Assembly (NCBI RefSeq): GCF_900110865.1
Contig: NZ_FOFD01000004.1
Span: 248,001 to 312,000, forward strand
Reading direction: 5' to 3'
Source: Natrinema salaciae
GTDB taxonomy: Archaea > Halobacteriota > Halobacteria > Halobacteriales > Natrialbaceae
DNA: 64,000 bases
Within the stretch, counting starts at the first letter, position 1; the number at the start of each line of letters is the position of its first letter. Made by a program: the position numbers and the translations under genes. Positions 51,194 to 52,772 of this stretch are shown here, piece by piece. The notes below the pieces were generated by a model. That model worked only from the letters and a program-made list of their open reading frames with translations. It did no database searches and was not told the origin of the DNA.

Positions 51194-51364
51194 TTAATCG
51201 CGGATCCGCTCGAGTAAGTCGGACGGCACGCCGCAGCCGCAGGGTTCGACGGTGCCGCTCCGGGGGCCGGTGACGACGGCGAAACTCACCGGCTCGCCGC
51301 AGCGCGGGCAGTCGTCGACCGGTGCCGGCTGAACCTCGCCGCCCGCTTCGTCGCCGTCGCTCAT
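51194..51364 (-). CDS. small zinc-finger protein
   Basis: This 56-residue protein (MSDGDEAGGEVQPAPVDDCP) has CPRC in DDCPRCGEPVSFAV and CGC in EPCGCGVPSDLLERIRD, enough to bind one zinc. A GGAGG sequence precedes the start (coding-strand CACGGAGGACCGCCGATG). It resembles the many haloarchaeal CPxCG-related proteins. The function is unknown. Confidence 0.75.
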   Translation of the reverse strand: MSDGDEAGGEVQPAPVDDCPRCGEPVSFAVVTGPRSGTVEPCGCGVPSDLLERIRD

Positions 51365-51447
51365 CGGCGGTCCTCCGTGATTGCTCTCGGTCGCAAAATC
51401 GGACTCGAGACTGGTCGTGTCGGGCGATTCAGTCGTCGTGCGGGACG

Positions 51448-51454
51448 TTTATAT
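51448..51454 (+). promoter_or_regulatory. TATA box before the candidate RNA
   Basis: TTTATAT within CGGGACGTTTATATCCCG. Transcription would start near 51475, just at the base of the first hairpin of the candidate RNA. Confidence 0.45.
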
Positions 51455-51473
51455 CCCGGTAGTTTGAACGTAA

Positions 51474-51575
51474 GCGTGGCTCCAGAACCCTTGCGGGTTT
51501 GGAAGCCAGTCTCGGGTGACCCTACCACCCGGGACATTTGACGGACCGTCCCCGACGGAGACCGGCTTCCGTCCG
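51474..51575 (+). ncRNA. candidate structured RNA with two or three strong hairpins
   Basis: Hairpin 1 (51478-51507): GGCTCCAGAACCC, loop TTGC, GGGTTTGGAAGCC, pairing 11 of 13 positions. Hairpin 2 (51510-51534): TCTCGGGTG, loop ACCCTAC, CACCCGGGA, nine consecutive pairs. Hairpin 3 is either CCGTC-CCC-GACGG (51546-51558) or GACGGA/TCCGTC (51540-51573). A TATA box sits at the right distance upstream. The downstream gene at 51690 has its own TATA box and looks leaderless, so this is probably not its 5' leader. It does not match a tRNA or any riboswitch I know. Confidence 0.45.
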
Positions 51576-51660
51576 AATCGTTGACGCGTTATGACCTATA
51601 TCTACTGCTAATACGTCGGAATGAGCGCGTCCGCTCGAGTCGAGTCGCCGTTCCAATTCG

Positions 51661-51668
51661 CTTATACA
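51661..51668 (+). promoter_or_regulatory. TATA box of the tetrapyrrole operon
   Basis: CTTATACA is centred about 26 bp before ATG 51690. It supports a leaderless start there and against the in-frame ATG at 51621. Confidence 0.5.
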
Positions 51669-51689: not shown

Positions 51690-52772
51690 ATGACCACGGA
51701 CGTCGACCTCACGGAGCGCGAGCGGGCGGTCATCAACGCCTTCCAGGGCGGGTTTCCCGTCGCGGAACGGCCGTTCGAACCAGCCGCGGCCGCCATGCGC
51801 GATCGCGGGGTCGACATCGATGCGGCGGGACTGCTCGAGACGATTCGGGAGTTAGACGAGCGCGGCGTGCTCTCGCGGTTCGGGGCCCTCGTCAACGCAC
51901 AGGAGATCGGCGGCGCGGCGACGCTGGTCGCCATGCACGCCCCCGCGGACCGGTTCGACGAGATCGTCGAGCGGGTCAACGATCACCGCGAGGTCGCCCA
52001 CAACTACGAACGCGAACATCCCCACCTGAACGTCTGGTTCGTCGTGAGCGTCGCGGACGAGGATCGCGTCGAGGCGGTGCTGGCCGAAATAGAGGACGAA
52101 ACGGGACAGGAGACGTACAACCTCCCCAAGCGACGGGAGTTCCGCGTCGAGGCCAAGTTCTACGTCGACGGACCGTTCGACGGCGGCGGCGACGTCAGGG
52201 CCGCCGGGATCGACTGCACCGATCTCGGTCCCGACGTCGCACCGACCGACGAATCCGCGCTCTCGCCGGCCGAACGCGACCTCGTCCTCGAGATCCAGGA
52301 CGGCTTCCCCCTCACGGAGACGCCGTACGCCGACATCGCCGACGCGATCGGTCGGGAGACGGAGTGGGTGCTCGAGACGGTCGCGCGGTTCGAACGCGAG
52401 GGGAAGATTCGCCGGATCGGCGTCGTGCCGAACCACTACGCGCTCGGCTACACGGAAAACGGAATGACGGTCTGGAACGTGCCCGACGACGTCGTCCCCG
52501 AGGTGGGCCCCGAGGTCGCCTCTCTGCCGTTCGTGACGCACTGTTACCGACGGCCGCGCCACGAGGGCGTCTGGCCGTACAACTTCTTCGCGATGACCCA
52601 CGGCCGGAGCGAAGACGAGAGCCAGCGGCGCATCGAGCAGGTTCGCGAGACGATGAACGAGTACTGGGACGTCACCGACGACGACTGGGACTCCCTGTTC
52701 TCGACGCAAATATTGAAGAAGACCGGAATTCGGTTGGGCGAGCGCGCCGATGCGAACACGACGGAGCGGTAA
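51690..52772 (+). CDS. ahbB: siroheme decarboxylase (AhbA/AhbB-type, fused two-module)
   Basis: This 360-residue protein is made of two Lrp/AsnC-like modules, each with a helix-turn-helix plus alpha/beta domain. Module 1 (about 1-165) has LTERERAVINAFQGGFPVAE and FGALVNAQEIGGAATLVAMH. Module 2 (about 188-360) has LSPAERDLVLEIQDGFPLTE, KIRRIGVVPNHYALGYTENG and HCYRRPRHEGVWPYNFFAMT. In other organisms AhbA and AhbB (NirDLGH) are separate chains that decarboxylate siroheme to 12,18-didecarboxysiroheme in the alternative haem pathway. The fused form and the genes that follow support this role. Confidence 0.88.
   Translation: MTTDVDLTERERAVINAFQGGFPVAERPFEPAAAAMRDRGVDIDAAGLLETIRELDERGVLSRFGALVNAQEIGGAATLVAMHAPADRFDEIVERVNDHREVAHNYEREHPHLNVWFVVSVADEDRVEAVLAEIEDETGQETYNLPKRREFRVEAKFYVDGPFDGGGDVRAAGIDCTDLGPDVAPTDESALSPAERDLVLEIQDGFPLTETPYADIADAIGRETEWVLETVARFEREGKIRRIGVVPNHYALGYTENGMTVWNVPDDVVPEVGPEVASLPFVTHCYRRPRHEGVWPYNFFAMTHGRSEDESQRRIEQVRETMNEYWDVTDDDWDSLFSTQILKKTGIRLGERADANTTER

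Follow-up and report, generated by a model that had tools for sequence, protein, structure and literature searches.

A predicted bistable 5' leader at the start codon of a dispersed uORF–zinc-finger unit in Natrinema salaciae and other haloarchaea

Within the window analysed here (the whole stretch of 64,000 nucleotides, positions 248,001 to 312,000 of contig NZ_FOFD01000004.1 of Natrinema salaciae), the DNA between a DUF5778 gene and the ahb haem gene carries what looks like a complete transcription unit on the minus strand, reading left. The predicted minus-strand mRNA is without prior annotation. The parts of the unit, in window coordinates, are:

51594 to 51607, minus strand: promoter-like motif CAGTAGATATAGGT, recognised by column conservation across 151 copies
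51577 to 51478, minus strand: structured leader
51437 to 51577, minus strand: match to the covariance model R1, covering the leader and the start of the uORF (cmsearch, 127 bits, E 4.4e-31)
51558 to 51570, minus strand: 5' strand of P1, GGAAGCCGGUCUC, pairing with 51501-51513
51548 to 51552, minus strand: 5' strand of P2, GGGAC, pairing with 51531-51535 (own-versus-cross z 11.6 over 149 copies)
51531 to 51535, minus strand: 3' strand of P2, GUCCC, preceded in the loop by an almost invariant AAA
51514 to 51530, minus strand: hairpin P3, GGGUG-loop-CACCC, near invariant in the family
51501 to 51513, minus strand: shared strand GAGACUGGCUUCC, the 3' strand of P1, whose GGCUUCC portion doubles as the 5' strand of hairpin D
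51478 to 51507, minus strand: hairpin D, whose 3' strand GGAGCC runs up to the start codon
51441 to 51458, minus strand: hairpin E, CGGGA-UAUAAACG-UCCCG, within the uORF and about 20 nt past its start codon
51361 to 51477, minus strand: uORF of 38 codons, TLTFKLPGYKRPARRLNRPTR..., whose stop overlaps the zinc-finger start
51194 to 51364, minus strand: ORF for a C4 zinc-finger protein of 56 aa, MSDGDEAGG...CPRCGEPV...PCGCGVPSDLLERIRD, whose start overlaps the uORF stop (ATGA)

The family consensus of the promoter-like motif, CAGTAGATATAAGT, lies some 25-30 nt upstream of the structured RNA, and a similar motif stands at the same position upstream of several distant leaders; transcription of the unit would start from the motif at 51594-51607. 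The haem gene has a promoter-like TATA of its own, CTTATACA at 51661-51668, in the conserved right flank and outside the inserted unit. Protein homology to ahb/haem proteins begins at 51690, not at 51621, and the ahb ORF probably starts with the ATG at 51690, the start at 51621 being an over-extension.

A preliminary description of this locus had placed strong hairpins at 51448-51575 and read them as an independent plus-strand RNA transcribed from a TATA box upstream of the haem operon. The hairpins are real: all three were found at these coordinates and fold more strongly than shuffled sequences, the first of them being hairpin D and the core of the second being P3. On the plus strand, 51475-51575 has a minimum free energy of -51.4, against -36.0 for shuffles (z -3.9); the value for the minus strand is nearly equal (-52.3, z -3.3). 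Because both strands fold comparably, energy alone does not decide which of them is the RNA. The statement that the sequence resembles no tRNA also stands, as ARAGORN returned no match, and a search with 4227 Rfam covariance models gave no match at the gathering thresholds and none at E <= 10 on 381 bases.

The independent plus-strand RNA itself fares less well. Such a non-coding RNA, started from the TATA at 51449 and perhaps forming a sense–antisense pair with the minus-strand mRNA, would account for the equally good plus-strand fold, for the slightly better pairing of the extended P3 stem and of the D stem on that strand, and for the resemblance of TTTATATC (51448-51455, plus strand) to an archaeal TATA box. 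However, this octamer is complementary to loop and stem sequence of hairpin E. Among relatives it changes (the loop reads CUUAAACA, CAAAAAGG or UUUGAAAU) as the surrounding stem is kept; a loop that varies on a constant stem argues that TTTATATC is not a conserved TATA box. Hairpin D has GNRA tetraloops in 24 of 45 cases when read on the minus strand and in 1 of 45 when read on the plus strand, and the one-sided changes in P1 are mostly G-U wobbles on the minus strand. Furthermore, the minus strand carries the uORF that is coupled to the zinc-finger gene, and the conserved promoter-like motif stands at the other end of the region. An independent intergenic sRNA would have a plus-strand promoter of its own and no coding partner; here coupled ORFs lie on the opposite strand and the plus-strand TATA is not conserved as such. 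We infer that the RNA is a minus-strand leader and not a plus-strand transcript, and consider the latter quite unlikely.

The unit is one of 14 copies in this genome. Using a 241-base query, blastn identified 13 copies in the same genome and further copies in 26 of the 28 other members of the genus and in one other genus, and the covariance model R1 (built from 35 copies) finds matches in 82 of the 125 genomes of the family (Natrinema and relatives) and in 23 of its 29 genera, with some genomes carrying at least 25-29 copies. Among named relatives, the unit occurs for example in Natrinema, Halopiger and Natrialba. A protein search of the window's genome returned 15 zinc-finger homologues at E < 1e-8, 14 of which have the leader; the homologue at L318 (G000:C3:70577-70723) has no detectable leader. 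An H/ACA guide, a tRNA-like T-arm and a haem-specific riboswitch were abandoned as candidates after these dispersed copies emerged.

The comparison of orthologous sites also speaks against a link to the haem operon. All 28 other genus members have the DUF5778 gene, with ahb adjoining it in 25, and in none of the 28 is there a leader or zinc-finger gene adjacent to it; with this position empty in 28 of 28 relatives, the unit is best taken as a recent insertion. A second empty site was found for copy L036, whose joined flanks form one continuous stretch of genome G022 without the leader. The unit is thus present or absent at orthologous sites in the manner of a mobile element, and copies within a genome share no flanks, adjacent tandem pairs excepted. 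At the window copy we saw by eye no terminal repeats, target duplication, transposase or integrase, and the intergenic flanks are too diverged to fix the ends. A conserved 3' region ending in CTCGAGTGCGTTTTTTTTTT is present in 72 of 146 copies. At L018, L094 and approximately 70 further loci, this region has several GC-rich hairpins and a T10 run located 0-150 nt past the zinc-finger stop, of which the window copy retains only a remnant. The palindrome CTCGAG, considered as an insertion target, belongs to the 3' hairpin and is merely the commonest palindrome here (3.5 per kb).

The association of the leader with its two reading frames is tight. In all 82 of the copies fetched first, the leader lies directly 5' of a homologue of the 51194-51364 ORF in the correct orientation; among 157 parsed copies, the uORF AUG directly follows hairpin D in 155, and the uORF stop overlaps the zinc-finger start in 156, by 1, 5 or 8 nt and with differing stop codons. 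In the window copy the uORF start codon (51475-51477, minus strand) is ACG, the close paralogues L029 and L031 having AUG. Given this ACG and the lack of an obvious T-rich terminator, the window copy may be decaying. The uORF peptide (consensus MIxYILPGYKRPARxxNRPTR) is basic, with 23% R+K and 4% D+E, and the zinc-finger protein is acidic. Since the uORF shows no third-position excess that would indicate coding selection, the claim that it is translated rests on the stop/start overlap. Its codons 7-14 are frozen at synonymous sites, as would be expected if they also form hairpin E.

The zinc-finger homologues are mostly 50-100 aa long, with CxxCG ... PCGC invariant in the aligned set (residues C19, C22, C42 and C44). 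For the 56-aa protein of the window, no Pfam or NCBIfam family scored above cut-off, a PDB sequence search returned only weak zinc-ribbon matches, and PADLOC reported no defence family. PMC11241148 warns that the geometry of metal binding in such proteins is beyond what AlphaFold2 can tell.

On the minus strand, the consensus leader forms a three-way junction of P1 (GGAAGCC.GUCUC/GAGAC.GGCUUCC), P2 and P3 (GGGUG/CACCC), with hairpin D next and the AUG after it. The compensatory changes that the preliminary description had proposed to look for in relatives are seen: P1 is paired in 92.9% of cells, with many G-U cells, has 7 pairs with two-sided changes and is matched by 0 of 500 shuffles on all measures, and hairpin D pairs better with its own strand than across copies (z 15.7 for the upper stem, 5.4 for the lower), although these own-versus-cross and shuffle tests correct only partly for relatedness. 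Plain mutual information with APC mostly reflected paralogue lineages and gaps in the alignment, and alignment-free tests were used in its place. The lower D helix does not rise above shuffles when the Natrinema-type alignment is taken by itself; its support comes from the alignment-free test and from the distant families described below. Hairpin E is paired in 99% of cells, 6 of which have two-sided changes, and its loop varies both among relatives and in viruses. The P2 loop contains a nearly invariant GAAA immediately 5' of the P2 3' strand (columns 54-60 of alignment A1), also present in most distant leaders, which may form a tertiary contact or a ligand site.

The GGCUUCC strand is common to P1 and hairpin D, so that the two pairings are mutually exclusive, and three strands co-vary: the 5' strand of P1, the shared strand, and the strand that abuts the start codon. 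The preliminary description had hinted at mutually exclusive forms of its third hairpin; the hint was correct, but the partner strands differ from those proposed. By nearest-neighbour energies the two folds lie at most 4 kcal/mol apart in 71 of 100 copies. At the level of sequence, the leader has one feature expected of a translational riboswitch, namely mutually exclusive helices of which one would occlude the initiation region, and the keeping of two competing pairings beside a start codon is what a translational switch would need. In the junction form, GGCUUCC would pair upstream with GGAAGCC and close the P1/P2/P3 junction, with the nucleotides just ahead of the start codon left free; in the D form, it would pair downstream with the GAAGCC that abuts the AUG, and the start codon would be packed between D and E. 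The balance of the two folds would set initiation at the uORF and, via the overlapping stop and start, also translation of the zinc-finger protein. Our guess is that the junction form would be on and the D form off, with the junction sensing the trigger.

The same arrangement is recognisable in other haloarchaeal families, where the leaders stand before different, unrelated small proteins. Across 17 such leaders, P1 scores 9.6 against 6.5 for cross-pairing, and D scores 5.8 against 4.7, each matched by 0 of 2000 re-pairings; the start codon abuts D in nearly all 17. The three strands take sets such as GGAACC/GGGTTCC/GAACCC or GGAAGAC/GGTCTTCC/GAAGACC, as the following examples illustrate: GGAACC/GGGTTCC/GAACCC-ATG in L293, GGAACCC/GGGTTCC/GAACCC-ATG in L301, GGAAGACgGGTCCC/GGGACCgGTCTTCC/GAAGACCaATG in L291 (with L294 nearly identical), and GGAAAGAC/GGTCTTTTC/GAAAGACC-ATG in L299. 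P3 reads GCGUG/CACGC, AGGUG/CACCU or CGGUG/CACCG in these leaders. Genome G271, from another family, has nine weak leader copies before different small CxxC proteins (including L296, L300, L304, L307 and L310), which suggests a parallel multicopy expansion.

These comparisons bear on two further explanations. The conservation might act at the level of DNA, with a duplicated promoter or operator region whose palindromes a regulator would bind, perhaps the zinc-finger protein itself, and RNA structure incidental: hairpin E is a short palindrome over a TATA-like sequence, the synonymous freezing of uORF codons 7-14 would fit as well, and Brz is an example of a small zinc-finger protein of haloarchaea that can regulate transcription (PMC2253796). 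Yet a long-range P1 with an internal three-way junction, three separated strands that change jointly, GNRA loops and a register fixed to the start codon are features of RNA, and the leader precedes unrelated proteins in other families; we regard the DNA-level explanation as quite unlikely. Somewhat easier to entertain, though still unlikely, is a static 5' UTR whose structures only protect the mRNA or aid initiation, with no regulatory switch. The P1 fold is favoured energetically in 72 of 100 copies and no trigger is known, both of which suit a static leader, but the AUG-proximal strand tracks the P1 strand in distant lineages, a match that a single static fold does not need. Taking the evidence together, we think that the feature is probably a bistable cis-acting 5' leader of a coupled uORF and zinc-finger mRNA, carried in a compact unit that has dispersed across the genome.

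Relatives of the leader are also found on plasmids and in viruses. R1 matches plasmids of Natrinema sp. SYSU A 869, Halopiger xanaduensis and Natribaculum breve at E 3e-26 or better, plasmid phalar01 of archaeon DL31 at E 5e-9, a Haloarcula halobia plasmid, a Halorubrum ezzemoulense megaplasmid and, in small searches, the pleolipovirus HRPV9 at E 3e-5 to 6e-5; the model was calibrated on a short run, making these E-values rough, and some of the single-copy matches at E 0.01-0.0001 in genomes beyond the family are due to chance, although the start codon abuts D in nearly all of those inspected. In HRPV9, ORF4 starts at the leader AUG. This ORF (L312 1492-2005) fuses a uORF-like start, MFDHYAPGFEIPDRPR, to a CxxC protein and has an integrase and a PhiH1-like repressor next to it. 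The gene that follows the HRPV9-type leader falls into PHROGs of unknown function. In a phage collection the leader of L285 matched HRPV9 and the window leader had no match, exact-pattern scans of IMG/VR gave 0 matches, and a similar leader in the virus Humcor2 is visible by eye but not scored by R1.

Several known systems share parts of this design. Translational riboswitches such as the fluoride riboswitch of Thermococcus kodakarensis and the synthetic theophylline switches of Haloferax volcanii likewise use alternative pairings in a 5' leader to expose or occlude the start-codon region; masking of the AUG works in a haloarchaeon, and as of 2021 fluoride was the only natural archaeal riboswitch experimentally determined (PMC8241225). 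Unlike these, the present leader has no known aptamer or Rfam match, has a different architecture, and rides on a dispersed multicopy unit and in a virus. Autogenous leaders of the ribosomal-protein type, to which the leader's own protein product binds, are similarly structured beside the start codon of a small, possibly nucleic-acid-binding protein and have coupled downstream translation, whereas the proteins behind this leader vary from lineage to lineage, most of them being C4-type or rich in cysteine in some other way. C(P)XCG zinc-finger micro-proteins, as described in PMC11241148, PMC6562870, PMC10716476 and, for Brz, PMC2253796, are likewise very small, acidic and haloarchaeal with two Cys pairs (here CPxCG ... 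PCGC), and are delimited by a length below 70 aa and two motifs; the 56-aa protein has CPRCG, but its second motif is PCGC, with a C-G-C pair in place of CxxCG, and it sits in a multicopy unit with a leader and a basic uORF. MITE- and REP-like units also have many copies at unrelated loci with presence and absence between species, but this unit holds complete genes, a promoter-like motif and, in half of the copies, a terminator-like 3' region. It is conceivable, though we lean against it, that the leader represents a natural archaeal riboswitch of a new class, one that senses a metal ion, a metabolite or its own zinc-finger product, in which one strand moves between the junction and the start codon and which is carried by a self-spreading unit shared with plasmids and viruses.

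With a leader that is widely distributed in haloarchaea, and for which alignments give evidence of two folds competing at a start codon, RNA-based control of translation in archaea comes within reach of direct tests in tractable hosts. The leader further brings to light a large gene family that had been hidden, whose small zinc-finger units can number in the tens in one genome and whose leader has relatives on plasmids and in a pleolipovirus.
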